Source: Floccularia luteovirens | Lineage: Eukaryota; Basidiomycota; Agaricomycetes; Agaricales; Squamanitaceae | Assembly: GCA_009739215.1 (NCBI GenBank) | Contig: VSJF01000009.1 | Coordinates: 620,001 to 684,000, forward strand | Length of the DNA: 64,000 nucleotides | Reading direction: 5' to 3' | Shown here: in pieces, positions 3,174 through 24,368 of the stretch | Numbering within the stretch: position 1 is the stretch's first letter | How the letters are laid out: each line of letters opens with the position of its first letter | Made by a program: the position numbers and the translations under genes | The notes under the pieces: generated by a model | What the model was told of the DNA's origin: nothing | Database searches by the model: none | The model's input: the letters and a program-made list of their open reading frames with translations, nothing else

Positions 3174-3359
3174 TCAAATGCAGCACCTTTGCCCTTCATT
3201 ACAGCCAAAGTCATAGAAGACAGAGCACCATCCATCAGGGCAGTTTCCATTGACACATATGGAACCACGACGGTTGCCTTGGTCTTGGCAAGAATGTTGT
3301 GCATTAGTGCTAGCAACGAAGGCAGCAGCAACAAGAATAGCTGTAGTGAAGAATTTCAT
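3174..3359 (-). CDS. Small secreted cysteine-rich protein, paralog 1
   Basis: This encodes a 61-aa protein. Residues 1-20 are a clear signal peptide (MKFFTTAILVAAAFVASTNA, ending in an A-x-A-type cleavage site), followed by a 41-aa mature peptide. The cysteine pattern is C-x10-C-x4-C-x12-C-x5-CC with a CCI end, shared with paralogs at 6317, 8232 and 24186. This copy has a seventh cysteine in GWCSVF where the others have Arg or Lys, so it has an unpaired thiol or a different disulfide set. An intron sits in the 5'UTR just before the ATG, and a TATA box lies at 3613-3620. The start at 3359 is chosen over an in-frame upstream ATG because it matches all paralogs and follows the intron acceptor. 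No known family is recognised; six cysteines in about 40 residues suggest a compact disulfide-stabilised peptide (effector, antimicrobial or signalling), which is only inference. Confidence 0.85.
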   Translation of the reverse strand: MKFFTTAILVAAAFVASTNAQHSCQDQGNRRGSICVNGNCPDGWCSVFYDFGCNEGQRCCI

Positions 3360-3365
3360 TGTTAT

Positions 3366-3433
3366 CTGGTGAGTCAAAATGAAAATAAAATGTCAACCAT
3401 TACAAGTATAATGGATAGAGCTAACGTGCAAAC
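3366..3433 (-). other. 5'UTR intron of small secreted protein 1
   Basis: Donor CAAG|GTTTGC and acceptor CACCAG|ATAACA lie 6 nt before the ATG. The same layout occurs in the three paralogs. The donor is weaker than GTRNGT but is conserved in paralog 2. Confidence 0.6.
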
Positions 3434-3612
3434 CTTGTATGATTTAGTTCGAGAGGATAGTAGCTTTGGTTTGGCAAAAAATGCACTTATTCCTGTAGAG
3501 CATGAAAAGAGACGATGTTTAGCTCAGAGATCAAGAAGTGTAGTTGAGAAGGAAGCTTACAAGTGAGTATTTGAAAGGTGAGTTGATGAAGCCAAGTCAC
3601 AATTCCAGGAGT

Positions 3613-3620
3613 TATTTATA
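3613..3620 (-). promoter_or_regulatory. TATA box of small secreted protein 1
   Basis: TATAAATA on the minus strand, about 254 bp before the ATG. The spacing is nearly the same in the paralogs (about 235-260 bp), as expected from a first non-coding exon plus the 5'UTR intron. Confidence 0.6.
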
Positions 3621-4566
3621 TGTTTTCTGGTGTGAGCACTTCCAAACATGAGGAGATCCCCAGAGTTCAAAAGGAACTGAAACATTCTTACAATCCAATT
3701 GTCACTGTGATTGACAGTCTCCACTGATTGAACTAATTGTTATCATGTTAGACAGCTAAAGGTCTGAGATGTTTGGTTTGTGAGACTTGACAGGATATAA
3801 CAAGATTTTTGTATACTGTTCTAATTGAAGCACTTGTTGCTAGATCAGTCCAGCATCGTATGTATTTTTCTGCCAATATGACTGCTGTATTGCATTGGAT
3901 TCTCTATAATATCCTTTGACTTGAGTTTCATGAGATCCTATAGTGAGCATAGACAACTTGACACTAGCGTCCTCAAGTGGAGTAACTGTACATTGTAGAT
4001 GATGAGTATCATATAAGTTAGCCTACTTTCCATAAAAGTGTTTCTGTATTGCCATTTTGGGTAGACACAAAAAACCATGCTTGACGCCTTTGTCCTGTAC
4101 CCATGTAAGTTACTAGCTTTAAACTAATAAGTGACCATTCTCGATTGACGCATCATCATTTCGAATTCATTTTGTAGTCATGGGTGCTGGATGGGATGCT
4201 TACTTCATGATGGGGCCCCCAAAATGTTCATGTCCACTGTCTACCAAGTACTGGAACCATAACAAAACTTGGGGGTATGGGCCATTGCTCTGCATGGCAT
4301 ATCCGAGTCCATTATTGGAATATTACAATTATCTACTAAACTCATAGCATGGTATTTAGGTCATAGAATTTTAGTTACACACTTAGCAAAACATACAGTT
4401 GTTTTTTTAATCTTGAAAATAAGCATCTTTGAACTGCCTCATTTGGATATTCATATCATAGTTGGATTGCATAATACTTAAGATGTAGATCAGCTAGTTA
4501 AGGGACTAAGCAATGCACATAACACCTCATTAAAATCATATTATTTGTATTCTAAGATAAAGGAAG

Positions 4567-4703
4567 AATGACAATAGGGTCTTTCAAAGTTGACCATTAA
4601 CTTTCCAATTATTTGTTCCATTATCGAAATTTGGCGGGAAAAACGACTTAATGGAACAAATAATGGAAAAATTAATGTCAACTTTGAAAGACCCTAATGA
4701 CAA
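4567..4703. mobile_element. hAT-like MITE with 8-bp target-site duplication
   Basis: Two inverted arms of about 47 bp (4576-4623 and 4649-4695) are nearly perfect reverse complements, starting AGGGTCTTTCAAAGTTGAC, around a 25-bp loop. The flanks 4567-4574 and 4696-4703 are both AATGACAA, an 8-bp direct duplication. An 8-bp target-site duplication with a (T)AGGG terminus is characteristic of hAT transposons. The element is about 120 bp and has no coding capacity. The structure is read directly from the sequence; the superfamily is assigned from TSD length and terminus. Confidence 0.82.
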
Positions 4704-5825
4704 CAAGGGAATACTATGTATGTGAACAGAGCTTTAAAATTGATTTTTTCCCTGCATGAAAACATATCAGCAGTGCCATAATAACTTACCAATTCAACCA
4801 AGTCATAGTCAGGATGAAATGCGAATCGATCCAAGCATAGAAACACATCAGAATTGTCAAAAGCAACTTAAATCTCCTAAAAGACAGTCAAAAATGCGAA
4901 GACATGAGGAAAATATACCATTTCTCACCCAAATCTTGTCCAAATCTTTTGGCATCAAATTCTACACCTTTCAATCAACTAAAAGCGTCTCAGATCCACA
5001 ATGTACACAGCAGGGATCACAGAGGAAATGAAGAAAACATGAAATCCGAAGGTTAAAATGCATTTTCCCACGGTCGCAATACTCACCACACTCACTACGA
5101 TAACGCGAAATCAAATCAAGCACAGCTTTTCTGATCGCATCAAAACACGCATCAAAGTATTTTTAAGCAGTGTACAATTCAAATTTTGCAATGTAAACAC
5201 TGTACAGACTGCATTTCTTGACGCTACCTTTCGCAAATTTGGATATAAATTCTCCTCAACATCCTCTTTCGATCTATACCAAATGCAAGCATTTCTGTCC
5301 ACTCGTTCTCTTTAAAATCGACATTCATTCAACGAAACGTTTCCTAACTAATCACCTACATTACTTGACATACACCAATACTATCATATGTTACAATGTA
5401 CCTACTTCTCTAATATACACATATTCCCTATACAACAAACCTCCTGCCTTTTGCTCTCCCTTCTCCACAATCTGTACTTTTCTACACTAATGTACCAGAT
5501 ACAATATAAAATTAATGGTTTTGAAGACAAGTCAAAACCACTCAACTAACATTCTCAAAAAAAAAACAAAAACAAAAACAAAATTTTCCTCACCTTCTTC
5601 CCAATGAATCATAGAAGGTTTTGTCATGCAGAAAAGATAGCCTTACGTCCCTGATATATAGTAAACAGCACATTGTCTGAGGGCATACACACTTCTTCAG
5701 CAGAACCATTTTTCCCACATCAAGCTTGAGACGAACACAAAATGTGTATGCCAATTATCACGTGCAGAGTTCCCACGTCAAGCTTGAAACGAACAAAAAA
5801 TCCCGGTTATAAGACCGACTCCTTA
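4704..5825. other. Intergenic AT-rich region
   Basis: Only short open frames without recognisable motifs are present (for example 4756-5031 and 5058-5315). A/T tracts occur near 5560. At about 5715-5800 a short direct repeat is seen, CACATCAAGCTTGAGACGAAC and then CACGTCAAGCTTGAAACGAAC. No RNA gene is recognised. Confidence 0.4.
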
Positions 5826-5829
5826 CGGA

Positions 5830-6035
5830 CTCGGAATATGAAGGATTGAAGCTCCACAAATCTGTAGCACGAGTATTCACACATGGAGCCATCGAGAACG
5901 GTGTGGCACTCTTGAAGGCTGTGGATTAATATAATTTTATGCTAGGCAAGGATGTTGGATGTCATTGGCTTGCTTTAACTAGAGGAACAAGCGCACGTTT
6001 CAAATCCCCCCTTTTCATTTCCAATGGTTAACGAA
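5830..6035. repeat. Direct repeat A, copy 1
   Basis: About 200 bp that recur at 7370-7570 in the same orientation. Shared stretches include TTAATATAATTTTATGCTAG and CATTGGCTTGCTTTAACTAG. The two copies flank duplicated unit B copy 2. A box-B-like word (TTCAAATCCCC) lies near the right end. Confidence 0.75.
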
Positions 6036-6316
6036 GGGTATGCAATGATGCATATTTCGGTTGGTTCTACTAATTGTTCATCTATTGAATAGAGCAAATC
6101 AAATAGATTATCTGATTGAATTCACCATGTGAATGCAGTATGAACTGCACCAACTTCAAGCAAGATCATATTTGTATTGGAACTACATATTCAACAAGAC
6201 AGCTCTGCCATCACAAAACACTAGTTACTGAATACGTCATATACAACCAAATTTCACTTCCATTTTCAGTTGTAACAAATATCAGAAACAGTGAATGGTT
6301 TGGACCACACCATTAT

Positions 6317-6502
6317 TTAAATGCAGCACCTTTGCCCGTCTTCGCAGCCATAGTCGTAGAAGACAGAGCGCCATCCGTCAGGGCAGTATCCATAGACACA
6401 TATGGCGCCACGAGCATTGCCTTGGTCTTGGCAAGAAATATCTGCATTGACGCTAGCAACGAAGGCAGCAGCAACAAGAACAGCTGTAGTGAAGAATTTC
6501 AT
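6317..6502 (-). CDS. Small secreted cysteine-rich protein, paralog 2
   Basis: A 61-aa protein: a 20-aa signal peptide (MKFFTTAVLVAAAFVASVNA) and a mature peptide with six cysteines spaced C-x10-C-x4-C-x12-C-x5-CC, ending CCI. It is the closest relative of paralog 1, differing at about a quarter of the mature residues while keeping all six cysteines and the core CQDQGN and PDGW motifs. It arose with the duplicated unit around it. The 5'UTR intron (6509-6573) and a TATA box at 6752-6759 are conserved. The function is unknown. The reading frame is intact, so both copies may be expressed. Confidence 0.86.
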   Translation of the reverse strand: MKFFTTAVLVAAAFVASVNADISCQDQGNARGAICVYGYCPDGWRSVFYDYGCEDGQRCCI

Positions 6503-6508
6503 TGTTAT

Positions 6509-6573
6509 CTGGTGAGCCAAAATGTTTGACACGTCAGCTATTACAAGATAATGAACAGAGCTAACGGGCAAAC
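6509..6573 (-). other. 5'UTR intron of small secreted protein 2
   Basis: Donor CAAG|GTTTGC and acceptor CACCAG|ATAACA, 6 nt before the ATG, at the same positions as in paralog 1. Confidence 0.6.
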
Positions 6574-6751
6574 CTTGTATGATTTAGTTCGAGAGGATAG
6601 TAGCTTTGGTTTAGTAAAAAATGCGCTTATTCCTATGAAGCGTGAAAAGAAACGATGTTTAGCTCAGGGTCAAGAAGTGTAGTTGAGAAGGAAGCTTACA
6701 AGTGAATATTCGAAAGGTGAATTGGTGAGGTCAAGTGGCAATTGCAAGCGT

Positions 6752-6759
6752 TATTTATA
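6752..6759 (-). promoter_or_regulatory. TATA box of small secreted protein 2
   Basis: TATAAATA on the minus strand, about 250 bp before the ATG, inside the homologous upstream sequence of paralog 1. Confidence 0.6.
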
Positions 6760-7369
6760 TGTTTTCTGGTGTGAGCGCTTCCGAACATGAGGAGACCTTC
6801 AGAGTTCAAAAGGGACACGAACATTCTTATGATCCAATTGTCTCCACTAATTGAACCGATTTTTATCAGCCCAGACAGCCGAAAGGCTGAGATATTCGGT
6901 TTACTAAGATTTTTGTGTGCTGTTCTAATCGAAGCACCTGTTACTGAACCAGCCCAGCGTCGTATATTATTCTGCCAATATGGCCGTTGGATTGCGTTGG
7001 ATTCTCTACATGATCCTTTGGCTCGAGGTTCACGAGACCTTATAGCGACCATAGACAACTTGACACTAGCATTATCAAGTGGAGTAACCTGTACAAAGCA
7101 GCAGATGAGTATCATGTAAGTTTGCGTACTTGCCATAACAGGGTTTCTGCATTACCATGTTGGGTTTTTTTTTGCAGCACAGAAAGGCGTGCCTTACGTG
7201 TTAATGAAAGAAACTAACTTCAAACTAATAATCCACCGCTCTCGATTGACGGGTCATCATTTCGAATCCATTTTGTAGCCATGGGTGTTGGACATTCGTC
7301 TTTTGTTTCATGATGGGGCCTCATGTCCACTCTGTACCGAATATCGGAACCACAGTAATAAAATATCGA

Positions 7370-7570
7370 GGGTTGAAGCTTGAAGCTCCACAAAACCTGT
7401 GGCAGCGAGTGTTCATACATGGAGTCATCATCGAACGCTGGGACGCTCGAGGCTGCAGATTAATATAATTTTATGCTAGGCAAGGATGTTGGACGTCATT
7501 GGCTTGCTTTAACTAGAGGAATAAGCGCACGTTCAAATCCCCCGTTTTCATTTCCGATGATTAATAACAC
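7370..7570. repeat. Direct repeat A, copy 2
   Basis: Second copy of the repeat at 5830-6035, same orientation. It contains an A-box-like TAGGCAAGGATGTTGG and, about 50 nt on, GTTCAAATCCC, which resembles tRNA promoter box B. Confidence 0.7.
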
Positions 7571-8231
7571 AGTATACTAGGAAGCCGAGTATGAAATGAT
7601 GTGTCATTGATTTCAGACTGGAAAAGCTCCAACGCTCTTCTAGTTCACTGTCTGGATCTGACAAGCCTGTTAGCAACGTCCTGGGCAACTGTCAGTAGTA
7701 CTTACACACCCGTTTCCTTCGTAGGAATGGCTCCGTAATTCGACGTTACATACCAGACTTATTCGCACCGCCAACTGCTTTATACAAAAGAAGCTCCACA
7801 CAATACAGTGATAAGTGTTTGTGTGTGATAAACATCGTCGGAGTGCTGCTGGTGGTAACGTAAACTCCATCAGCAGTGCGCCAAATAGGGCAACCGCGAA
7901 TCCCAGGACATTTACTTGAGAAAACTGGAGACTTGAAATTATTCAACGTTCATTCAAGTCGTCTCTTGAGGATTCTGAATTTTTTCTGCCGGTTGAGGTT
8001 TGACTGAAGTGTATATCCGTGTTCTGTGACTATTAATCACGTTTCTGAAGCCAGCTACGACTCGGTTCCACACAAACATGTTATATAGCTCAGCAAAACA
8101 ACTACTACAAAAACTTCAAACTACAACTAACACAAATACTTCATATTGTCCAACTCTTTTTTTGAATTTTTTCCTTTGTCTTAATAATAACTTCAAATCA
8201 TACTTCGTTTGGTAAGTCAAGCGCTTGCATC

Positions 8232-8414
8232 TTAGATGCAGCACCTCTGTCCGTCAAGGCAGCCAGTGTCCCAGAAGACACTGCGCCACCCACTAGGGCA
8301 GCTTTCGAAGGTACAGAGAGAGCCGCGTGCATTGGCCTGATCTTGGCAAGACAGAGCGTTAGTGCCAGCGACGAAGGCGGCAGCAACGAGGATGGCGGTT
8401 GCGAAGAATTTCAT
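8232..8414 (-). CDS. Small secreted cysteine-rich protein, paralog 3
   Basis: A 60-aa protein with a signal peptide (MKFFATAILVAAAFVAGTNA) and a 40-aa mature peptide, cysteine pattern C-x10-C-x4-C-x12-C-x5-CC, ending CCI. It is more diverged than paralogs 1 and 2 but keeps CQDQ.NARG, GWRSVF and DGQRCC. Upstream DNA to about 9090 still shows patchy similarity to the upstream part of unit B (GCATTGGATT...TATAAT), so an older duplication is likely. A 5'UTR intron lies at 8421-8502 (CTCAG|GTGAAC to ATAG|ATTACA) and a TATA box at 8674-8681. Function unknown. Confidence 0.86.
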   Translation of the reverse strand: MKFFATAILVAAAFVAGTNALSCQDQANARGSLCTFESCPSGWRSVFWDTGCLDGQRCCI

Positions 8415-8420
8415 TGTAAT

Positions 8421-8502
8421 CTATATTGATTAGAACACGCAAAATAACGAGTCAGTCATCGTGGACTACAGTAGTGAATAAAATTGTTTTGCAGGGGTTC
8501 AC
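8421..8502 (-). other. 5'UTR intron of small secreted protein 3
   Basis: Donor CTCAG|GTGAAC, a CTAAT branch-like word and acceptor ATATAG, 6 nt before the ATG. This is the best-formed of the paralogous 5'UTR introns on this strand. Confidence 0.65.
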
Positions 8503-8673
8503 CTGAGGGTTTTGGGTTTAGAGATTCGATAGCTTTGGTTTAGCAATAATCTGGTTCTATGAAGCGTTCAAGTCATAAAGATTAGTATAAAGAAGAAGAG
8601 CGGTAGTTGAGAGAGAAGCTTACAGGTGAATGCGAGAGGTGGATTGGTACAGTAAGTCGCATTTTCTAGCCCT

Positions 8674-8681
8674 CTTTTATA
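8674..8681 (-). promoter_or_regulatory. TATA box of small secreted protein 3
   Basis: TATAAAAG on the minus strand, about 260 bp before the ATG, matching the spacing in the other paralogs. Confidence 0.55.
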
Positions 8682-9099
8682 TGCTTTCGAGTGTGTACTT
8701 GTCCAGACAGGAAACACAATAATTCTGATTATTCGGGGTTCAATATAGCAAAACAAGTACTTTTCACCTCTCAGTTGCCACCGTGATTGACAAGTCTCCA
8801 CTGCCATGCTCGCGGATTTCTGTCATGAGGTACATTGTCAGATTCCTGTCAATTTGAGGTATTCTGTTTGTGAATATGCATGGAGTATTCTTCCAAATAT
8901 CATACATATTATGCCTTGTACAATTTGAAATGCCCGCCCCGCGTTCAGTTCAACACTTTCACTGCAATTCTCTTCCATGAGGCTTGGTGTGGCATTGGAT
9001 TTCTCTTCTATAATACCCTCTTGGGATTCACGAGCTCTCAGAGAAGATTCGCGTACAGCCAAACCGGCACCAGTGGAGTATCTATATATCAAACAACCT

Positions 9100-10900
9100 A
9101 TCAATCAAGAGAGAAGTACTTGGCTAACCAAATAGCGTACTAACTATAACAGGTCACTTTTCATGCCCATAAAGCCATTGTGGGGTTCATTTGCAAGTTG
9201 TATTTTTTTGAGGTATGTGAAAGCATTCGGCTCCAAACGAGTCACTGCCTCAATCTTATTGATGGGGATTTTCATTTACTTTGTAATGGCGGTGTCCTTG
9301 ACCAAAGAATCTATCCAGTTAGCGAGCAGTAAGGAACAAAGAGCTATTTCTTTATAAGTATAGCATATGTTTTACGGTTTGAAACATTCTTATCCCCACG
9401 TCAATCCTCGGGAATACACGACGTCTAAAACCTAATCATTGGGGCAGCTGACTACCGTGGTAAAACTTTACACTACCAACATATTGATTCGAGGTGAAAG
9501 CTCCACACGTCGAGATAGTATGGGTGCTTCGTGAGTGATAAGCATCGTTGAAGTCGTAGATTGTGGTATAAATCTTGACTGAGCGCGAGAGCTTGCTGCG
9601 TATTATTAGATGATCTAGTAAACAATGCAGAGTCATAGACTCAAACGTGGATGATATAAAATGGTATGAATGAGGGGGATACACGTGGATCAAGGGACAA
9701 ATAGGTTGGGGTGGAAAAGGTGGGTACCATGACGATTAGCCTCATGTATGCAAAAGCTGTTTATAGATCCACTTGAAATTCATACATCCTTAAGTTTACA
9801 AACCATTGAAAACAATAAGTGACTTGGTCTTTCTGTCAAATGACTTCAATTCATGTTGTAATATACGCTAAAGTAGCCTGAAGGGTGAATTTTGATATGG
9901 CATTCGTCACAGACCAAGGATGGTACTGACATGCGCGTTTCATCCGTTTCGAGCCACAAGTAGACGCGGGATATATATTTGAAGGGTTGTGCTGAAAAGG
10001 CTGCGATGTTAGTCCCTTTTGAGCAAGCGCCTAGTCTCCAAAGAGGCGGTATGCTTCAACCTCCCTAGTAATCTAAGACATTAGGCACTCGGTTTTTAAC
10101 TTTTGTATGAAACGACTGGCATCCCTTGGCTTAACAGCACTGTGGAATTAGTGAGTAAGTAGATAATAATTTCAATGGCATGCTGTGGACGACGTTGACA
10201 GAGTCTTCCTCGAAATGGTAAAGGTGTGAAGCTGTAACAATGACTAGTTCAGGTATGACCGGCTTTTGACCGCTTACAAAATTGAAGGCGGAACTAATTT
10301 CCAGGGAGACTAGCGAGACTTGCCACGGAAGAGTGTTCGGGAACAGGTGTCAGTGTAAGACGATAAAATTGTTTGTTGCGCTACATTGTTTAGAAACACG
10401 GGGACAGGTTTGAGTTGAGAAGATACTCGAGTACAGCACTCATGTTGTACGTAGGCCACGACGCAGGTGAGAGTCAGAGTGGCAACGTTGCTGCATTGGC
10501 GGCGGAATATACAGAATGTCAAGCACGTGTTGGAATTGTCAATGGTTGCTGTGCGAACGCGTCGGACATATCCAGGACCATTCTTAGCGCAATAACCGCA
10601 GGTCTGGGCTGCGCTAAGCATGTAATTTACGGGTGTTTCATGGCTGTATATTTCTCCTTTTTTTTCAAGCTGTAATGAAGAATAACTTTGAGTGAGGCAC
10701 ACATCATTCCAATATTCTCACGCACTCTGCATCTTCCCTTTGTTGAATTTGTCACCGTCCTTCTCTTCTGTCTTTTTCATCTTCCATCTTCTCTCCATTC
10801 CTCTTCATATTCTTCCATATCTCCTCATCGTCAACCACGACGACTACTTCCTGCTATTCGCGCCCGGTAGCATCGACTCAGCTGTCGCGCAACCAAAGCA
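9100..10900. other. Long intergenic region without a supported gene
   Basis: Short frames (for example 10415-10675 and 10310-10702) carry no recognisable motif or clear splice partner. Pyrimidine-rich sequence at 10730-10850 is probably the promoter and 5'UTR of the downstream kinase. Confidence 0.4.
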
Positions 10901-10919
10901 ACATTAGACTCCAACAAGA

Positions 10920-13900
10920 ATGATGGCGCCTGCAACAGCAGTCAGCTCTGCTGCAAGTCCAACCAGTCCATCTACAAGTCTTCAAATTCCTGCCACGGAT
11001 ATGTCTTCAGGATCCTCCCGTCATCAGATTAGCAACCATTCTCCGTCAGCAAATGCTTCTCGTCCTGTCTCCGTGGCCGTTCACAGTCAAAATCCTCCTC
11101 CAGTCTCCTCATCTTCGCGGCGTCAGCAGCGAGCTTCTCACTCCGTTGTTCCTTCTTCATCCCACTCCCAACAGCCGAATTCACATACACATGCAAATTC
11201 CAATGATGATAATCCACCATACACTGATGTATTCTCCCACCCAGCCGCAGTAGCTTATGCAACAGCTCATCCACGTAGAACCATTCCCAAGTTTGGCCCG
11301 TATCTACTCCTACAAACATTAGGAGAAGGAGAGTTCGGTAAAGTCAAACTCGGACTCCATAGCCAATATGGCGAAGAGGTCGCTGTTAAACTTATCAGGC
11401 GAGGGAATGTAGACACTTCCATTAGAATGTCAAAAGTAGAACGCGAAATTGAGGTCTTAAGAGTGGGTTTTCTCTCTTGCAAAGACCTGCTACCCCTGAC
11501 CCGATGAAATTCAGTCCCTCAAACACCCCTAACATTGTCCGTCTTTATGACGTTATCGAGACCGACAAATATATCGGTATCATTCTTGAGTACGCTTCTG
11601 GTGGAGAGTTATTTGACCATATCTTGGCACATCGTTATCTTCGTGAGCGCGATGCAGCCAAACTCTTCTCTCAGCTTATCTCTGGAGTTTGGTACATACA
11701 CCAAAAGAAAATTGTTCACCGGGATCTCAAGCTTGAAAATCTTCTTCTTGATCGTCACCGGAACGTTATTATCACAGATTTCGGATTTGCCAATCGCTTT
11801 GAGCACCGGGCCGACGATCTTCATGCAAACCTCCTGTGGTAGTCCTTGTTATGCAGCTCCGGAATTAGTAATCTCAGAAGGACTGTACGTTGGCAGCGCT
11901 GTCGACATCTGGAGCTGTGGTGTCATTCTATATGCTATGCTTGCTGGTTACCTTCCTTTCGACGATGACCCAGCAAATCCAGACGGGGACAACATCAATC
12001 TCCTCTACAAATATATTGTCAATACTCCGCTCTCATTTCCTGAATACATCTCTGCAGAGGCCCGCGACCTCCTTAGTATGATGCTCGTCCCTGACCCCAA
12101 AAGACGTGCCAGTCTTGAAAGCGTCATGCGTCATACTTGGCTTGGGCAGTATGCCGGCATCCCACGCGATGATGGTAGCCCATCTGCGTTTGGTAAGACT
12201 GTGGAAGACCTCGAACGTGCAGCAATGGAACAACATCACCAAAAACGTCTTGCGTACCAAAGACAGTTGCGCGCCGCAGTGCAGTCGGCACAGGGCCAGA
12301 CCTCTCCAAGCTCTCGCACCCAAAGTCATCACGCTCTACTCGGACATTCAGCAGCACCAACAAGTGCTGGTCGTAGCCGTTCAACGCAGCCAGAAGTGAT
12401 GTATGATTCTTCGATTGATCATAGTTTGATGTCACCCGCACCTGCAGAATTGGCAACACCAACCAGTGGCTCACGGAAGCCTCAAGGAAGTCCTGCAGCG
12501 CTGGGTCTGAGTGAAGATGATCCCTTTGCGCCCCCCGGAGGTACTATTCCCAGTACAAGTGTAGTCGTTACTACTACAACTACCACTACCACAAATCGAC
12601 AGCGCACATCGGAGGAAGGTGCACGAGGTGCCCTTGTTCCCGTTGATGCTCGGGCACAAACCCAAACGCAATCACCAAAAGGACACAGAGCCAGTGGCAG
12701 TGGAAGTGGAAGTGGGGGAGGAGGATTTAGACATACCATTCAAGTAGAATACGATGAGCCAAAGAGTGGACGGAGGAGTGAAGAAAAGAGGAGGGATCGC
12801 AGTAGTAGTCAAGGTCAACAACCACAACATCAGCCTCAATCAAACGGTGGCCAACAAAATGGGTTTGGAACTCCACCACCGTCGTCAAACAGAGACCGTC
12901 GTACATCCCAGAGTCCAACTATCAAACCTTTACCCCCATCACCACAAACCGCTCCTCGTACACCTAAGAACTCGTCGTCTCCTCCCAAACATCAACAAGC
13001 TGATGTTAATCTTGCACCAGTTCGTCTAGGTGACTCTACTCCCGTCGCTACACCATTGGTTAGCATCTCATCTCCTCCCGATACCCCTATTGCATTTGCA
13101 CACGAGAATAAGGAAACAACGGATCAAGGTTCTGTGTCTTCTATCAAGAAAGGGCACAAGAAAGGTAGATCTAGTTTAGACAAGTTAGGACTCGGTAAAA
13201 TTTTTAGTGGTGGGGGTAACAGTCCTGTCTCCTCTGGTGCAGGGTCAGACACTGCGATAAACTCAACAAGCAACGGGCGTGTCAATCCTCCTTCGAATTC
13301 CTCGTCAGTCATTCTCAGTCCTGTAGTAGCGGAGAAAGAGCCCAAGAAGGAGGATGGCAAGAAAAGTCGACGTAATACTCTCACTGTTATGGTTGAACCA
13401 ATTAAACAGACTATTCGTAATCGCGGAAAGAGCTCTCGCAACCAGACTCCGAGTGTTGGAACACCCGCCACTGGTGATGCAGCAAGTGTCGAGAGTGGCC
13501 GTTCAGAAAAGGGCAAATTGCAACCACGAAATGCAGTACTTCCTCCTACAGAAACGACATTTGTGAATGCTGGTGATGGTGAGAGCACAGGCCCAGGAAT
13601 CGGTATGCAAGCTTCGACAAGCAAAGCGCGCAAGGTGATGCAATGGTTCAGGACCAAGTCCAAGCAGGATTCTGCGGGTCTCATGACCGACGAGGAAGGA
13701 CGTACAGAGAAAGATGGCGCAGAATATAAAAAGGGTTTTGCTGCATCAAGTGGCACCCTTAATCAGACTCCAGTCACTGCCGTTAGTAGGGACACAGATT
13801 TGCTAAGTCCTAGCATCGCATCTTCTACGAATGCACCTCGCAAGTCCATTATCACCCCTTCCCGTACACCATCAACAGCTACGGACTCCTCCGTTTTCAA

Positions 13901-14747: not shown

Positions 14748-15914
14748 AAAAATGGAAAATGGAAAGCATAAAGCATACCACAAACATGGCTCAAGTTAGC
14801 ATTTGTACCACGACAATCACAACTTTGGAAGAACTTCCAAAAAAAATAAACTCTTTGTCTGTTCTGCTTCTATTTTCCATTTTTCTTCACTTCAGACTAT
14901 CCTCGTCTTTTTTTTCTGTTCGATATCCTTCTTTCTCTATATCCTCCCGTAGCTACATTCAGACCTGCTTACGACATACCCTAATCTCCCTGTCTTTTGT
15001 CACCTCCATCCTCTATTCACTTGTCGTCACTGGTCCTTGGACTCTTTCTAAAATCTTCCTCAGCAATTTTCCGTACCTTTTTTTTTCTGTGTTCTTCTGT
15101 TTTCAATATAAAGTCGCCTGTTGCCCAAATCCGCTTCCCCACCATCTAATTCCCTCACGTTTGCGTTCCCCTCACTGCGTCTACTGTTCATAATTGACCT
15201 TCCAAATGTCGTTCTCACAATCATGTATGGCAATTCAACCGATATTCCCCTCTGTATATAAGAATAACTATTACTTTTTTATTTATTGCCGAAAACGTAG
15301 ATCTTCAGGCAAGGTACCCACTTGAATATTACGAACGCGTACTTGTCAGGGACAATGGCGATATTTCCAGACTTGAATGAAAATCAACGTAAAAGCTCTG
15401 GGCAGTTATGTAACCTCAAGCCTCAGCAACCAGTTTTTATAAATGAAAAAATCGCGAAATGGTTACAGTACATACTTAAATGGGTGCGATAAGTTGCGAC
15501 ACTCGTTTTTTTTCACATGAGTTCCTGTGGCGTAACTCCCTCACTCTAAGGGTATATTATCCCATCTAACAAAACGGAGTCAGATACCGAATAAATCAAG
15601 GTCAGTGTGGGTGCTTATCCACCCTTGGCTTTTTTTTTTCCAGTACACACGGTTGCCAAATGTCGGTTTCTGATAAACTCAGCTTCTCAGAGCTTCTGAT
15701 CTCCTGGAGTCATTTACATATTTTTAGACCAAGAGAAACAGGCAGTGTATAACTAGTACAAAGTTATACAACTAGTACGTTGCTACTAAACTGAAACAAA
15801 TCCTCAAATTTTAAAACTAATCTCACCCATTTTGTATCACTACCTCATTCTTCCTATTCTCTATATCCCTCATTCCTTGTTCTCCCATATACTTCTTTCT
15901 ATTCAGAATCAGTC
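14748..15914. other. Intergenic region between kinase and KA1-only gene
   Basis: Very pyrimidine-rich sequence at 14860-15190, then AT-rich DNA. No coding region is supported. An A/T-rich, TC-rich stretch at 15830-15905 ending TATTCAG just before the ATG may be the promoter or a 5'UTR intron of the next gene. Confidence 0.4.
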
Positions 15915-16489
15915 ATGACAGAGACTTCTGAAACATGTAGCGAGCTACCAGCAGTTCACACCGGCGCTATTGACCAATCAATGGTTACAAGCATGAATCC
16001 AGCGACCGTGATTCAGAATGTTACAAAAGTTTTGGATGATATGGGTATCGAGTTCAAGGCAGAAAGTACCTACAAGTATCGCTGTGTGCGACCAAGGAGC
16101 CAGTCGCTCCCACAGAATGCCATAGAAAACGAGGTGGGATCTACCCCTTATGACCATGAAGGTGCCAGCAATAGCGTGAGTAGCTTACCTTGCTTTGGAT
16201 ATTGTGGGTAATGCCATATGGTGCATTCATTTCCGAACAGGCCATTTATGGAGAAAAGACAGAGGATCCAGGAGACGAAGTCCGATTCACAGTAGAAGTG
16301 TCACGACTCAACCTCTTGAAAGCCGTATACAGCCTTGACATTCGACGACTCAAGGGGAACCTAAGAAGCTACAAATTCTTGTATGATATGATCAGGGAGT
16401 GCGTTCCTTTTTTATTTATTTGATGCCTAGTTTCCACTACATACCACTTATAATCTTACGCATACAGGCGAGTAAATCTCCCGAAATGA
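15915..16489 (+). CDS. Stand-alone KA1-like domain protein (kinase C-terminus paralog)
   Basis: Three exons (15915-16175, 16241-16398, 16468-16489) give 146 aa in an intact frame. The protein aligns from residue 18 to its end with the C-terminal module of the kinase just upstream: GAIDQS matches GAVDQT, DDMGIEFKAESTYKYRC matches EVMGVEIQLESEYKYRC, and SLDIRRLKGNLRSYKFLYD is identical in both. The last two introns have the same phases (0 and 2) and the last exon is 22 nt in both genes. It therefore looks like a duplicated 3' end of a Kin4-type kinase gene that lost the catalytic domain. KA1 domains bind acidic phospholipids and can autoinhibit kinases, so a membrane-binding or competitor role is possible but only inferred. 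Confidence 0.82.
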
Positions 16490-16674
16490 TCGCGCAGAGA
16501 CCCACAGTTCAGTTCATGTATAACCATGTATCATGTATTCATTCTTTTGAAAAGTGTATCTCCTCTCTTATCCGAGCTGGCCAAAATGAATGGGGGTATA
16601 GAATTATAAAAGATAAATCCCGGGCAGTATTAAAATGAATGAAATACAAGGCTTTTCAGAAAAAGGAAAAGTTG

Positions 16675-18435
16675 TCACATCCCGCAAACAGCTTGAAGGC
16701 TGGCACTCAACGTTAGCCCACATGCTTCAACAGCAAGCTCTTTGCCAAGCTGATCGTCGGCCTGGCCACCACATTCATCCGCAGGTGTAACCGGAGCGCT
16801 GCTATCGGGAGTGACGCTAGTTTCCACACCGGTTTCCATAGTCATGGAAAGCGGAGATCCTGTACTGCTCGTCGGACTTGGGTTTCCAACCAACCACGCA
16901 GTAGTTCCTGGGCTATTTGGGGTAATATTACCCGATTCGAGATTGTCTCTGTATGCCAACATATCCTGGAATGAGAGCTGTGAAGTATCAAGGTTAAGTG
17001 ATGGAGGAGCAGCAGCACGTTTAATCGAAGAAGTCATGGGAGGGTCCAGGTTATTGGCAACCGATGAATTAGCTACTTTAGAAGGACTGGCAGATAAGGC
17101 AAGTAGAACTGGATCAATCTGTGGTACGTGATTGTTATGAGAGGTACTTGAAGATGACGACACCAGCAGCTTTTGAAGAGAAGGAGGAAGGCCCGATTGC
17201 CCTTGCTGAGATTCATTGCCAGACAGATGCGAAGCTAAAGGAGGTAGCGTGTCTTCTAGAGGATCCACCCAGGAGTAATCAATTGGGGTATTTCGAGGAT
17301 CATCGGGACCCCACAGCGGTGCAATACTAGGGACTCTTGCTCTCTTGTTTCCAAGTCTTGGGTCGAAAGCCTCAGGATCTGGGTTATTCTTCATTTCCAT
17401 GAATGCAGCGTGAGCAGAAGCATAATCTTGGTATCGATATTGCCAGCCACCGGGAAGCCCTTTATACAGAGAAACCTCTCTTGACATAGGGTAGCTATGG
17501 AGTTCCCGAGAAAGATTGGTGCCAGGAGCACATCCAGCCAGTTTAGGTGGAAAGTTCTTTAGAGCCTGAGCCTTGTATTGTTCCTCAAATCGGTTGCCAG
17601 CTGAGATTAGGTCCGGATAGAGCAGACTTTCCGGAGAGCTACTGCTAAGAGCCCAAGAACTGTTACTCTTGACAAGCTCAGATTGGTCTTGGGCAGAGAC
17701 ACTATCAAGGAAGTCGCGTAATGCAGGAAGAATCGAAGAGTCAGAACTATCAGATGAGCCATCAGAGTCCGGATTAGCCTGAGATGTAGCAGCAGAGGCG
17801 GCGGCTGAGGTAACAGGATCCAGTTGTCCGCATTTCTTCCTAATACAGGTCGGACAAGATTTAATAAAATTAGACACCAGATCCTTGGGAACCCATGTAT
17901 AGTACTTCCGTATCAGTCCACAAGTCTTGTCGCGTCCGCCGTGACCTGTACTTCCATGACAGTAACATAAGATATCGTAGATCTGCTCTTGAACAGCAAC
18001 AAGTAAGCCATCGTGAAGGATTACTTCAGGAGGAGTACCAGAAGACGGTTTTCTGGGCTTTACGAGTTCAGGTTGAGACTTGCTTAAGACGAACATCTTG
18101 CGTGCCCAGAAGCGAAACTGAGCAGTATCCTTTTGAGACTCAGGATCATGAAGAACATCCCAGATCCTATCGAACATCGATTGAGAAATCAGCGCCTTGC
18201 CTTGTCGTCTTGGTGTGAGAGAACCAATATAATTAGCCTCGATCTGCTTGTACTGTCCATAGGTAGGAAACCCAGCTCGAGTTTGACCTTCCCCGAGTGT
18301 CTGGTTTTGAGCGATTTCTTGAGGTTCACAGTTGACTATCGGAGAGGTCATAGGCAGTGAATGTGTCGCATTTCGGATATATGGTTTCGACCTTGCAGGC
18401 TGGGAAGACTGGGAGCCGGGACGTTTGGGAGACAT
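16675..18435 (-). CDS. Protein with integrase-type H2C2 zinc-binding motif, possibly domesticated
   Basis: A single exon of 586 aa. Around residues 155-200 is a zinc-binding signature of retroelement integrases: H-x4-H in CHGSTGHGGRDKT, then a WVPKDLV segment and CPTCIRKK (C-x2-C). There is no integrase catalytic DDE core, no reverse transcriptase and no LTR nearby. The rest is low-complexity and Ser/Pro/Asp-rich, with an N-terminal Ser/Arg-rich tail and an Ala-Ser linker after the finger. The long intact frame, absence of transposon partners and single-copy setting suggest a host gene derived from a Gypsy-type integrase, resembling animal GIN1-like proteins in principle. It probably binds DNA or protein through the finger. 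Exact function unknown. Confidence 0.75.
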   Translation of the reverse strand: MSPKRPGSQSSQPARSKPYIRNATHSLPMTSPIVNCEPQEIAQNQTLGEGQTRAGFPTYGQYKQIEANYIGSLTPRRQGKALISQSMFDRIWDVLHDPESQKDTAQFRFWARKMFVLSKSQPELVKPRKPSSGTPPEVILHDGLLVAVQEQIYDILCYCHGSTGHGGRDKTCGLIRKYYTWVPKDLVSNFIKSCPTCIRKKCGQLDPVTSAAASAATSQANPDSDGSSDSSDSSILPALRDFLDSVSAQDQSELVKSNSSWALSSSSPESLLYPDLISAGNRFEEQYKAQALKNFPPKLAGCAPGTNLSRELHSYPMSREVSLYKGLPGGWQYRYQDYASAHAAFMEMKNNPDPEAFDPRLGNKRARVPSIAPLWGPDDPRNTPIDYSWVDPLEDTLPPLASHLSGNESQQGQSGLPPSLQKLLVSSSSSTSHNNHVPQIDPVLLALSASPSKVANSSVANNLDPPMTSSIKRAAAPPSLNLDTSQLSFQDMLAYRDNLESGNITPNSPGTTAWLVGNPSPTSSTGSPLSMTMETGVETSVTPDSSAPVTPADECGGQADDQLGKELAVEACGLTLSASLQAVCGM

Positions 18436-18955
18436 TAAAATGATAATATTAGATTAGAAATGCTTTAAAGTAAAGTACTGTCAAACTGTTAGTTTATAGC
18501 AATGCAATAGACAGTAGAACACTCACTTTGATAACGAACGATGTCGTGGTTCTTTGAGAACCTTTGGCAGGGAGGTTGACATGTTTATATGTCGTGACTA
18601 AGCTGGACTGTCGTCACATGTGACAAGTGATAATAATAGAAACAATTTCATAACGCAGCGAATTCAACGTTGTCAGCACTAAAGATATCCTGATTAAGCA
18701 CAATTTATACGGTTATATTGCTGATTTGTGGCAGTTCGCATTGCGAAGAATATGTACGGACAAAGCAACTGTGAGAGACACCGCACTACTAGGGATGGCA
18801 ATAATCCCTAGAACAGATAGCTAAGGACCAATACAATGGGTGAAAATATCTGGTACAGATATACAATAAAGAAGACAAGGAGAATAAACGACTACACGCC
18901 AAGATAATAGGCAGTATGATAAACAAGGAGGATAAGAATATATAATCGGTGGGTG
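18436..18955. other. Intergenic region
   Basis: 5' flank of the integrase-motif gene and 3' flank of H2A.Z. No gene recognised. Confidence 0.4.
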
Positions 18956-18958
18956 TCA

Positions 18959-19520
18959 TTAAGCCTCTGGCCTTTTGCCTGTAGCCTTGACACCCGTTGT
19001 GAGACTTTTATGAATGAAGGGCAATACTCCGCCTCCAGCGATGGTTGCTCGCACTAGAGTGTCTAATTCTTCGTCACCACGGATTGCGAGTTGGAGATGG
19101 CGAGGTGTTATTCGTTTGACACGAAGATCTTTGGAGGCATTACCTAAATGAATAAGAAGTAATAATCAATAACCAAATAAAATACAACGTATGTAACCTG
19201 ATAAACCTACCAGCGAGTTCCAACACTTCTGCCGTTAGATATTCTAGAATGGCCGAGGTATAGACAGCAGCCTTGGCACCAATGCGTACATTGTGCTGTG
19301 TGCGCTGTTTCAAATAACGGTGGATACGGCCGACAGGAAACTGAAAGCAGGGTAATCATTGAGTAATGCTTATCGGATGTATTGTTTAATGACTAACTTG
19401 AAGTCCAGCCTTCTGACTTCTAGTTTGGATGGTTCGTGGTTGAGCCGGTCCAGATTGGGCGGAGGAGTTTGGAACCGCGCCAGACTTAGATTTTCCACCA
19501 GATTTTGATTGAGGAGCCAT
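18959..19520 (-). CDS. HTZ1: Histone H2A.Z
   Basis: Three exons (19520-19398, 19340-19211, 19143-18959) encode 145 aa. After a Lys/Ser-rich tail ([14 protein letters not shown]) the histone fold reads [15 protein letters not shown], then [26 protein letters not shown], and ends [16 protein letters not shown] with [16 protein letters not shown]. The residues that separate H2A.Z from canonical H2A ([16 protein letters not shown]) are present. There is no SQEL/SQEY tail, so it is not H2A.X-like. The protein replaces H2A in promoter-proximal nucleosomes, deposited by SWR1. Introns are phase-consistent and the frame is intact. Confidence 0.95.
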
Positions 19521-19524
19521 TTAT

Positions 19525-21400
19525 TGCAAAATCCTTGGTCCCCAGTGAGGAATATGATAATTTCTAGATGACAAGATTTAGCTGAAACAATTCGGGCTCC
19601 TGGGAGTACACAATAGGAGATATACCTTGAATTTCAAGCACAACTCTAGATGAGGCGCGTATGTTGATCTTCTGTTAAGATATGTATGTTCAGCCTCTGC
19701 AGAGATGGTGTAATATTATATCTTGGCAATCTTACCTTCGCGAACGCGAAAGTGGCTGAAGCGTGGTGGTGGTTCCAAAGAAAGACAGTGTTGCTACTTG
19801 TTTATAATTTCTCACATTCCTAAACCTATCAACAAACCGGTCACATGCTCAGCTTAGATTCTAGCTCTCTGAGTCTTGGTTGGTTGCCACTCATCCATCG
19901 ATCCAGCTCAACAAGGGCCAAAACAGAAGCCTCGTAGGCCGATATAACACCTCCAAGTCCAATCGAGGTCTTCATTGAATTCAGATTATTCCCCCAATAA
20001 CTATTTGGCACCCAAGTTTTTTGCAAGATATACCCCATGTTGGATTGAATCTACCAAACCCAATTGATAGGAAGCAGATTTGGGATTGGTATAACACTCC
20101 GTTCTTCGAACCTCGTGTCGTGTCAAAAAAAGGTTTGAAAATGTGAGATGTTGTCTGACAGTAAAGTAGCCGTTGGACGGTGGTTCCTATAACCCGCTTC
20201 AACCAATCTCACCACGATTCTTGTAACTACACCCATCACCATCGTTGCTCATAGCAGCATTACTCCTGACGGGGTTTTCTACAGAGCTGACAGCCGACGA
20301 CTGAAACAACCTGGTTTTAGATCAGCCACTGGTCCTCCTTGCAAGAGAACCGCTATTGGCTATTGGTGATACAGAAGATATCCTGTTGGAGGCATGCCGA
20401 TAAGGACTGTATCTTCTGCAGGTATAGCTAAAAGGAATTAGAGGCCCGAAATCGAGGGCTTGACCAAAAATTTCCGACATGAAAGCATATTATTGCTTAA
20501 GGGCATACGCTTGCCCCTGTGAAACACTAAATGCCCCGCAAGCCATATGGTCTAGAGAGGTGCGGACATGACACAGCTTTGAAACTGTTAATATCTTCTT
20601 GAGAATAACCATGAGCATGGGATATTTAAATATAATATCCGAGGACACCGCATGCAAGTTGGCTTCTTAGCAAAAAACAAAGTGCTTTGTACAGGCTGCT
20701 TCAAGCAGAGTGTTTAAAAGTCAGTTCAACGACCTAGGCCACTTCTCCACCCAGAATCGCTTTTAAAAGAAGTTCAGGAAGTCTTCTTGTTATTGTTTTT
20801 TCAAGTACTTTGTTCCAAATTAGTTCTTTAATTAAAGACGTTCAGTGCCATATGACTGCCAATCAAATTCTCGTGATGGAGTCATGCTGAGCTCATCCAT
20901 GTGCACGATTGGCCATTATGTCAGGGACATGAAGCGGCTGGTGGGTATATCCTACAAGCTCCGCACCACCATAGGCGGAAAGATCGACTTTTGCATCGTT
21001 GAACGCTGAGCTGTTACAAGATCATGCAGATCCCAAACTGATATGGGACATCATATTACAAGAATGTGTGTTCTTGCGCTAATTGTAGTTCAGACTGGAC
21101 CTTCATCTACAGAAGGAAACTTACGGTAAAGCATTAGGAAGTCACAGCAATGGTACGATTCCCGATACCGGTTGCAGGACTATCAAGTGGTGGGACAGAT
21201 AACGATTCTTCTTGTATCTCACAGCCCTCACCATAGATGACATGACACAGATCGGGGAAAAGAAATGACAGTGTTCCGTCGATAGACCAACATATCACAC
21301 ATCATATTGGATATAAAGATTCAGGCGTATATAAAGCTTTGAACTCGACTCCAAGAGATAATCAGCTTTCCCAGTCCTTCAGCTTACTTACTCATCTATC
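19525..21400. other. Long intergenic region
   Basis: The first part is the H2A.Z promoter. The remainder has only short frames (for example 19841-20038) without motifs. No tRNA, repeat or gene is supported. Confidence 0.4.
21328..21335 (+). promoter_or_regulatory. TATA box of the terpene synthase gene
   Basis: TATATAAA, 72 bp before the ATG at 21407; a typical distance for a short 5'UTR. Confidence 0.6.
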
Positions 21401-21406
21401 ATCACG

Positions 21407-22884
21407 ATGTCCAGCTTCACTTTCCCAAACAGCTTCCGACTTCGTAATATCGCAAAATTGACTGCATCTACACTGGGAGAGCTGCCTGCAGTATCCAATT
21501 CCAAGCTCCAACGAGCCACCGAGGCAATGTTCTCGGACGCCCATACTTCATTGTAACTATCGCATTGTCTGTCTCGGCAGTTATGCTTTTGCTAATACTA
21601 GATTAGACTGGATGTCTTTGATGCTAAAGCCAAGCAGAAGCTGCTCGCATTGGAGTTTAACCAGTTGTGCGCATCGGGGTTCGATAACCCAACGTCACTG
21701 CAGTTAGTGACTATTATGACATTTTTTTCCTGGATGATCATGGTACTTAACCGTTTTCAAAACCTGTTGTAAATTATACTGAGTACGCGTTTATAGGCGG
21801 ATGATCTCATTGATACCGGCGATCCACAAGCAGACCCTGAATTGGCTGGGTCTGCAATGGAATCTTGTACCCGTCTTCTACGAGACCCCTTCGATACTCT
21901 CACGAAACCCGATTCACCTCATGGATCAATTCTCTACGAGTGCGCATCTACATATATGTGAACCATATTACTGCCGCTGACTTCTGGATAATTCAGATTC
22001 TTAAATCACATCCATGAAATGGGGACTCCAGGCGCATATAATCGGTAAATAATCTACTAACTTCACTTACGAACACAGTTAACCCATCGATTTCTATAGC
22101 TTCACTAACAATATGAAAGAGATGATAACCTGTTGGATCGAGCAATGCGACAATCGTTCGCTAAAAACGGTCGCTTCAATCGAGCACTTCCTTGTGATGC
22201 GACGCCAGGCTTCGGGATGGTATACTTTTGGAGGTTGGTATTTATTGTATGGTCTGCACGAATTCCCCCTGAGTTTTCATTTATTTCTTAGCCATGGTTG
22301 AAGGTGTCTTCGGATACGATATCCCAGATATCTTATTCAATGATCCAACGGTCAAAGCCATGGCCGAAGCTCTCGATGACATTACATCCTGGACAAATGT
22401 ATGTGGTGTACTTTTGGACTTAATGTCTGTTATTCTAATCTTTTCTCCCTATAGGATATCTGCTCATTCAATGTGAGATGCTCTTCTCCTCCAGGTCGTA
22501 AGCTTTTACTGACAAAGCCTTTAGAAAGAGCAAAAGACTGGAGATTATCAGAACCTCGTGTGTTGTGTCATAGAAGAACGAGGACTCGACCTGCAAGAAG
22601 CCATTGACTTTGTCATTAATATGATCAGTTCCCGATTGGTTGAATACCAAAGAATGCAGGCCGAGCTTCCCACATTTGGACCTGAAGTTGACGATGAACT
22701 TGCAAGATATCATCGAGCAAATGAGCTTTTTGCTCAGGTTTTGACCACTTGGTACTGCCGTAGCCATAGTAAGGGTTGATTTCCGCTTGTTATTTTGCAA
22801 AAACTAACGCTTTCGACAGGATACTTCAAATATTCAGAAAACAATCTTGATAAAGATGAATCCATTATCATATTATACTCATGA
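21407..22884 (+). CDS. Class I terpene synthase (sesquiterpene synthase type)
   Basis: Nine exons (21407-21552, 21607-21742, 21797-21939, 21997-22044, 22100-22233, 22292-22398, 22455-22472, 22525-22768, 22820-22884) give an intact 346-aa protein. The aspartate-rich metal-binding motif is DDLID at the start of exon 3. The second motif (NSE/DTE) is NDICSFNKE, built across exons 6-8. RRQASGWYTFGAMVE is the usual effector helix, and an RY pair near the C-terminus is present. Length and motifs match basidiomycete sesquiterpene synthases, which cyclise farnesyl diphosphate with Mg2+ in the cytosol. The product cannot be predicted from motifs. Exon 7 is only 18 nt and encodes DICSFN. The C-terminus after RY is short (about 17 residues). 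No other terpenoid gene is adjacent; a P450 lies 22 kb away. Confidence 0.93.
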
Positions 22885-23940
22885 GTATTATACTTTCGCT
22901 ATATTAAAGTTATTGGACACGTTACTGTAAGGTTACAATATTATTTATCAAGCATTTAATCAGAATCTCAGAAATCGCCTCTAAGAGATATACAAGGATA
23001 CTAAAAGGGCCGGAGTAGTGAATGCCAAATGTTTCTTATGAATGACGTAATTGCTATGACTTAATGTGAATGGCATAGAGAGGAACTTGTTATTAGGTGT
23101 GTATACTACTGAAAACTATAAATAGACTCCATCGTTGCTTAGACTGTTGTAGAAGATTATCATGGCAGCCGCAGTGATGGTTTATTCACTGACATCTAGC
23201 ATAGCAACGGACAAAGGAAATCGTGATGTGATGTGGGTTTTTCTCTCATATACCCTCAATTGATGAGGTCAACTAGCTCTTTCGTCCAGTCTTATATCAG
23301 CCCAGAATTCTGGGTTTAACGTCACTACTGTTTTGTTATTACCATCGCGAGAAGTTAAATATTATGATAAAATTTTAAGGCTTGAGGTTAGTGGATCCCC
23401 TCCTCGATTCTCCACTGATCAATATTGTCTCATACAACATGTAAGCCTGATTAAAAATCCCCTCAAAGCTTTTGGGTACAAAAACGCAGAGATTATTGCA
23501 GAAGAGATATGATTGGTCCACTGCAGAAGAGCGGCGTCTTACCAGTGTTTTACTGGACGGATCCATCAGCACGAACGCCAAGATGTTGGAATAAATTCCG
23601 TCTGCTTCCTTTACGTAGCCAACGCGTAGCCTCAATTTTTCGGTCTCTTGTGCGCCGTCGGACACCGTATACTAGGACAGGAGCAAACTTTACAGCAAAT
23701 AATACGAAAGCCATATTTCTGGTCAAAGATGAGCCATTTCATATTACTGTGTACACTGCCTAGCAAGTCGCGAACATTTATGGATATGCTCCACCGGCCG
23801 AAAAGTGTAAACCGAACTAGGAATGTGGCATCAATTAAAATTTTATGGTGTGTTTTCTGCGGTTACACACCCACTCCAAGAAAAAAAATCAGCTAATAAA
23901 AATTCTTGGAGAAACACTAACCGTAAACAGGGTACAGTAC
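22885..23940. other. Intergenic region with an orphan TATA box
   Basis: A good TATA (TATAAATA, 23117-23124) is followed 38 bp later by an ATG at 23162 that opens only about 35 codons. This may be a relic or a short transcript. No other gene is supported. Confidence 0.35.
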
Positions 23941-23943
23941 GAG

Positions 23944-23951
23944 TATAAAAA
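23944..23951 (+). promoter_or_regulatory. TATA box of small secreted protein 4
   Basis: TATAAAAA, about 242 bp before the ATG; the spacing agrees with the three paralogs on the other strand. Confidence 0.6.
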
Positions 23952-24109
23952 GGCCGCAAGTATGGTCATATTCCACAGGATCCACCCAGTGATTGATTTG
24001 TGAGTTTCTCTTCAAACTGAATCTCCTCATCATTAATTTATCAACTCAATCATACAGAGTCGGGCAACACTTAAAAAACGTCGAAAGAAACTCTTCCAAC
24101 CTAATACAG

Positions 24110-24180
24110 GTGATATCTTCATCTTTTGATATATACTTAGCCATGGCTGATATGCCTCAACTGTCATTTTCCCCCTCTAG
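24110..24180 (+). other. 5'UTR intron of small secreted protein 4
   Basis: TACAG|GTGATA to CCCCCTCTAG|TTACA, 5 nt before the ATG. Its position is the same as in paralogs 1-3, which supports common descent of the whole gene and not only the coding part. Confidence 0.7.
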
Positions 24181-24185
24181 TTACA

Positions 24186-24368
24186 ATGAAATTTCTCTCC
24201 GCTGTCATCGTCATTGCTGCAACCCTTGTTGCAAGTACCCATGCACTTTCCTGTCAAGAGCAAGCTAATGGTCGTGGTGCCCGTTGCTACTCAAATCCTT
24301 GCCCAGGTGACTGGAAGAGTGTCTCCTGGGACAGCGGGTGTGGGCATGGCCAGTACTGCTGCGTTTAG
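24186..24368 (+). CDS. Small secreted cysteine-rich protein, paralog 4
   Basis: A 60-aa protein: signal peptide MKFLSAVIVIAATLVASTHA and a 40-aa mature peptide with the same cysteine frame, C-x10-C-x4-C-x12-C-x5-CC, here ending CCV. It is the most diverged member (CQEQANGRGARC, DWKSVSWD, GHGQYCC) yet keeps every spacing. It lies about 16 kb from the tandem block, on the opposite strand, so it moved or predates the local duplication. Introns, TATA spacing and protein length agree with the others. Function unknown. Confidence 0.85.
   Translation: MKFLSAVIVIAATLVASTHALSCQEQANGRGARCYSNPCPGDWKSVSWDSGCGHGQYCCV

Follow-up and report, generated by a model that had tools for sequence, protein, structure and literature searches.

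Four short open reading frames (g1 to g4) of the basidiomycete Floccularia luteovirens raise the question of what kind of peptide they encode and where else such peptides occur. They lie in a stretch of 64,000 nucleotides (nt) of contig VSJF01000009.1 (positions 620,001 to 684,000), hereafter the window, meaning this stretch as a whole. We found that g1 to g4 are real genes and belong to a conserved family with members in other fungi and in a fungus gnat. Judged by sequence searches, the best reading is that the family is undescribed and without a Pfam name. On the basis of structure models, we tentatively favour the explanation that its secreted peptides of about 40 residues adopt a beta-defensin-like (trans-defensin) fold and most likely act extracellularly, against competing or invading microbes.

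Four genes with a common cysteine frame

A six-frame scan of the whole window for the pattern C-x10-C-x4-C-x12-C-x5-CC gave four matches, corresponding to g1 to g4 only, while the same pattern was absent from 30 mononucleotide shuffles of the window. Chance occurrence is ruled out by this difference and by the TATAAA box and predicted intron position common to all four (Table 1), and g1 to g4 are confirmed as real genes. Each coding region is a single open frame with one coding exon, located on the minus strand in g1, g2 and g3 and on the plus strand in g4. The precursors start with a hydrophobic N-terminal signal peptide ending in A, as judged by eye, followed by a mature part of 40-41 amino acids (aa); their secretion, predicted from sequence, is probable. 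Reading frames and pattern scan agree with the sequence-only reading, which had described four intact genes for 60-61 aa proteins composed of a signal peptide and a mature part of about 40 aa. Identical cysteine spacing, also proposed there, holds for g1 to g4, with the reservation that g1 has a seventh cysteine, and is loosened in the relatives described below (10-11, 4-6, 12-14 and 5 residues, the last being 14 in the gnat gene model).

The additional cysteine, in place of R44, was found in g1 alone among the four. This copy may be decaying or may form dimers.

Relatives in other genomes and database searches

No relatives were found when g3 alone was used as a query of the protein collection. 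A profile of g1 to g4 led to three relatives, accepted out of six candidates, and a profile of seven sequences to nine out of 169 candidates, all with E 3.9e-10 or better. These nine come from Leucoagaricus sp. SymC.cos, Pleurotus eryngii, Basidiobolus meristosporus (two), Ascochyta lentis and the fungus gnat Bradysia odoriphaga; three are without a named source. Identity to g2 over 39 mature columns declines from 92% for P0001 through 82% (Leucoagaricus), 74% (gnat), 66% (Basidiobolus) and 64% (Pleurotus) to 56% (Ascochyta).

Among the 13 aligned members, 11 end in CC. Both Basidiobolus models have CY at this place, and in the gnat model 9 additional residues stand between C4 and CC; all three gene models look faulty, and the sequences were kept unaltered despite this. 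The Basidiobolus sequences (P0004 and P0005) are identical through the cysteine core, share the CY end and differ in their tails. A source labels both as CBM1, a label that Pfam scans do not bear out.

The gnat relative is encoded on a contig of 2.84 Mb. It is nearer to g2 than the Pleurotus sequence is, against the species tree, which suggests transfer, with 39 columns being too few for a firm tree and contamination a possible cause.

Pfam matched no member among the 13 at cut-off (best E 0.083), in line with the earlier remark that the cysteine pattern was not recognised as a described family. NCBIfam gave three stray single-member matches only, the targets being two enzymes and one outer membrane protein and the lowest E 0.028, and sequence scans of PDB gave stray rows only. 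The motifs C-x3-C and C-x-C of cis-defensins (CS-alpha-beta) are absent from all four genes, in which the spacing is 10, 4, 12, 5 and 0. In the literature, no fungal family with a beta-defensin fold appears in titles and abstract openings among the matches listed, a coverage from which subscription papers mostly fall out and which is no proof of absence. What the sequence-only reading had outlined thus stands as a real, probably secreted, cysteine-framed family, while the effector role considered for it finds no support here.

Two prokaryotic loci (L015 and L016), obtained from nine matching stretches in one genome_contigs scan, were judged to be chance matches, located on the opposite strand or in another frame of a long bacterial frame. 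By eye, these bacterial frames are recombinase-like and permease-like. None of the 30 stretches in a viral_contigs scan is a relative, and viral models searched by fold yielded 12 rows, none of them at E of 5 or below.

Constraint, conserved loop and probable target

Alignment of g1 to g4 revealed 28 invariant columns out of 61. Of these, 22 are non-cysteine, and 14 of the 22 are located in the mature peptide, so the statement that residues other than cysteines vary widely was overstated. Whole-gene ratios of non-synonymous to synonymous substitution rates (dN/dS, Nei-Gojobori) are 0.17 (g1/g3), 0.30 (g1/g4), 0.19 (g2/g3) and 0.18 (g2/g4), at dS of 1.1-2.2, which is near saturation. The ratio is 0.75 in the recent pair g1/g2 (6 synonymous and 17 non-synonymous differences) and was not computable for g3/g4. 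Restricted to the mature part, the ratio is computable for four pairs, at 0.55 (g1/g2), 0.25, 0.49 and 0.29; in the signal-peptide part of g1/g2 it is 1.63, from 1 synonymous and 5 non-synonymous differences, a number too small to carry weight. The four genes are under constraint, relaxed in their youngest pair, g1/g2. There is no sign of positive selection in four of six pairs (0.17-0.30), and the value of 0.75 fits relaxed constraint. With the four low ratios and the 14 invariant positions, the diversifying surfaces suggested earlier are not supported.

The motif RG...CP.GWRSVF[WY]D.GC..GQRCC is mostly kept from mushrooms to the gnat. In the loop between C3 and C4, residues P40, W43, R44, V46, F47, W/Y48 and D49 are each present in 11 to 13 of the 13 sequences; P40, V46 and D49 are invariant, and position 48 is W or Y throughout. 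A loop so nearly fixed points to one conserved ligand. Since fungi and an insect share this motif, a component of the microbial envelope is favoured as this ligand. Net charges of the mature g1 to g4 are -1, -3, -1 and 0, making charge-driven bulk membrane lysis unlikely in this fungus; among the relatives, net charge spans -3 to +4. The peptides would probably act by binding their specific envelope component and not by charge-driven lysis.

The same scaffold could also do another job, if the peptides were fungal signals or host-facing proteins (in development, recognition or symbiosis) that bind one conserved receptor. The invariant non-cysteine positions, 14 in the mature g1 to g4 and three in all 13 sequences, would be expected of such proteins, as would the low dN/dS in four pairs and the non-cationic copies of the window. 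We consider this unlikely: the motif is also present in Ascomycota, Basidiobolus and an insect, a distribution hard to fit to one fungal receptor, and relatives P0003, P0006 and P0009 carry a charge of +4.

Predicted fold

The predicted fold consists of a small sheet and a short helix at the N-terminus, which would be held by six cysteines ending in vicinal CC, a frame present in all four genes of the window (in g1 together with the seventh); we infer disulfides C1-C5, C2-C4 and C3-C6. Foldseek returned 45 rows for the g3 model, 38 of them alpha/beta-defensins, 4 unrelated and 3 cnidarian, including rank 1. For the g4 model, 10 of 20 rows are alpha/beta-defensins, 9 are unrelated and one is cnidarian. 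Most unrelated rows are ranked lower than the defensins, and models of the two paralogues agree. No cis-defensin was observed among the rows of either model, which does not exclude one.

The cnidarian rows, together with the relative in a fungus gnat, could indicate defence against small fungus-eating animals, in the manner of similarly folded sea-anemone peptides. This appears very improbable, as a similar fold does not set function and nothing here points to activity on animals. An eater bearing its own copy would, moreover, suit a microbial target better.

The likeness to beta-defensins in frame and fold, suggested by the models, was missed by the sequence-only reading, and several observations weigh against it. 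Structural matches of both models have weak E-values and Z, and the models rest on shallow alignments. Beta-defensins have a three-stranded antiparallel sheet; strands predicted in the g3 model extend over residues 33-35, 45-46 and 57-59, the middle one being barely formed; in the g4 model it comprises one residue, which moves weight from a beta-defensin-like fold toward a different one. Likeness to defensins would then be incidental: the peptides would have another small disulfide fold ending in CC, for example a clip-like one, and the models would be drawn to those structures that are most abundantly represented. Clip domains of arthropod proteases have six cysteines in the same order, also ending in CC, and are attached to proteases. 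At E<=10, one member, P0009, matches the curated clip model, over a stretch of 14 residues (E 0.083) whose 13.7 bits fall short of the cut-off of 26. This match in only one of 13 members, the 60-61 aa frames that encode no protease domain, the agreement between paralogue models and the mostly low ranks of unrelated rows make such a fold rather unlikely.

Also weighing against a beta-defensin, mature peptides of the window are not cationic (net -3 to 0), as beta-defensins usually, if not universally, are. Sequence kinship with beta-defensins was not detected, since neither the curated beta-defensin model nor any solved beta-defensin was matched by sequence at E<=10, within HMMER's filters. Furthermore, according to the accessible part of a 2020 review (PMC7203481), beta-defensins and big defensins have in common a phase I intron at the 5' end of their cysteine-rich region. 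No such intron was found in g1 to g4, whose coding regions are single-frame and whose predicted intron precedes the ATG. As neither sequence kinship nor the phase I intron was found, the family is not filed as a beta-defensin, though it appears to be built like one.

A secreted, beta-defensin-like peptide directed at microbes remains our tentative preference. Abundant secretion of such a product would be in keeping with its signal peptide, the number of gene copies and their TATA-like boxes.

Gene architecture, genomic copies and neighbouring sequences

In all four genes, a TATAAA box is located between -242 and -267, against an expectation of 0.026 per 30-nt slice of one strand. Candidate introns of 65-82 nt in the 5' untranslated region (5' UTR) were likewise predicted in all four, with AG 5 or 6 nt ahead of the ATG; the scan was limited to AG at <=14 nt from the ATG, and one alternative donor exists in g1 and another in g3. 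Copies g1 and g2 belong to a tandem duplication, while g4, 55% identical to g3, is the most diverged copy.

Table 1. Positions of the peptide genes and associated features in the window
Feature	Position	Strand	Description
g1	3174..3359	-	61 aa, seven cysteines: extra C replaces conserved R44
g2	6317..6502	-	61 aa; 92% identity to metagenomic P0001 over the mature columns
g3	8232..8414	-	60 aa; structure model mbab7bc4f01fa
g4	24186..24368	+	60 aa; most diverged of four; mature part modelled, mf6a2e5d938b5
TATAAA of g1	3615..3620	-	-261 from ATG
TATAAA of g2	6754..6759	-	-257 from ATG
TATAAA of g3	8676..8681	-	-267 from ATG
TATAAA of g4	23944..23949	+	-242 from ATG
Predicted 5' UTR intron of g1	3366..3433	-	68 nt, ends 6 nt before ATG; weak GTTTGC donor; 121-nt alternative
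Predicted 5' UTR intron of g2	6509..6573	-	65 nt; weak GTTTGC donor
Predicted 5' UTR intron of g3	8421..8502	-	82 nt; 49-nt alternative
Predicted 5' UTR intron of g4	24110..24180	+	71 nt
Tandem duplication, ~1.2 kb	2971..7292		g1 copy 2971-4191, g2 copy 6108-7292; offset ~3.1 kb; blocks 78-94% identical

Protein searches through the whole host genome (27.0 Mb, 22 contigs) with g3, g4, P0006 and P0009 returned only g1 to g4 as intact copies; these searches score the best candidates only, and more diverged members could escape them. A fifth copy (L013), found with the g3 query 13 kb left of the window (C22:607007-607147, 43% identity, E 0.012), is a relic in which two cysteine codons are lost. 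An element of 281 bp with 45-nt inverted ends, 98% complementary, sits where the 3' end of the relic is expected (L013:1201-1481) and probably interrupted this copy.

Among neighbouring sequences, a terpene-synthase gene recognised by eye (21408-22900, +) ends about 1.3 kb before g4. Its exon 22528-22776 matches Terpene_syn_C_2 (E 1e-06), and the other exon tested, 21797-21940, has no Pfam match. An eIF2D winged-helix exon (25375-26196, +; E 7.6e-18) marks the next gene after g4. A fragment of a Ty1-copia type element with Pol_BBD, rve and gag_pre-integrs (143-1066, -) lies some 2 kb away from the tandem pair g1 and g2, and a 586-aa frame (16675-18435, -) has the Integrase_H2C2 zinc-binding domain as its sole Pfam match. 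An ordinary neighbour is the gene for a single-subunit RNA polymerase of mitochondrial type, present as exons (51890-56499, -; RPOL_N, RNA_pol). Both the neighbouring genes and the named relatives fit a fungal genome.

Comparison with known peptides

Beta-defensins of vertebrates (human types 1 and 2, avian AvBD3 and AvBD11) share with the window peptides six cysteines ending in CC and, in the models, the short N-terminal helix and short strands; they also make up most structural matches. The window peptides differ from them in having no detectable sequence kinship, a loop of 10 between C1 and C2, a single coding exon and no cationic character, and in being fungal. For big defensins and panusins of invertebrates, the accessible part of PMC7203481 gives a beta-defensin-like C-terminal domain, and panusins are stated there to resemble single-domain beta-defensins. 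In comparison, the window peptides are without an N-terminal hydrophobic domain and without the phase I intron, the sequence comparison being that of Pfam and PDB scans only.

Fungal cis-defensins, such as plectasin and Zymoseptoria peptides, are similarly small, secreted and built on six cysteines. As far as the accessible part of PMC5234102 goes, Zymoseptoria defensin-type peptides are multicopy, and fungal cis-defensins require C-x3-C and C-x-C, both of which the window peptides lack. The sea-anemone peptide tau-AnmTx Ueq 12-1 (5lah) is at Foldseek rank 1 for the g3 model and rank 3 for the g4 model; its own entry terms the fold uncommon, and PDB scans gave no sequence match to it. To clip domains, the family reaches only the 14-residue sub-threshold match.

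Defensins fall into two types, cis and trans, that differ in origin; according to the accessible part of the 2020 review (PMC7203481), the trans type arose only in animals and evolved nowhere else. A fungal family with a trans-defensin fold, present in distant fungi and an insect, would, if true, extend the type beyond animals, or present clear convergence or gene transfer. It is conceivable, if doubtful, that this fold is not an animal invention: the family, conserved in three fungal lineages, would have passed a copy from fungi to the gnat (or the reverse), and a fungal weapon would now reside in the genome of a fungus-eater. If the fold is confirmed, a known kind of peptide would be placed in an unexpected kingdom. 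The size of 40 residues allows direct production and structure solution, and with the sequence motif others can search for the family and give it a name.
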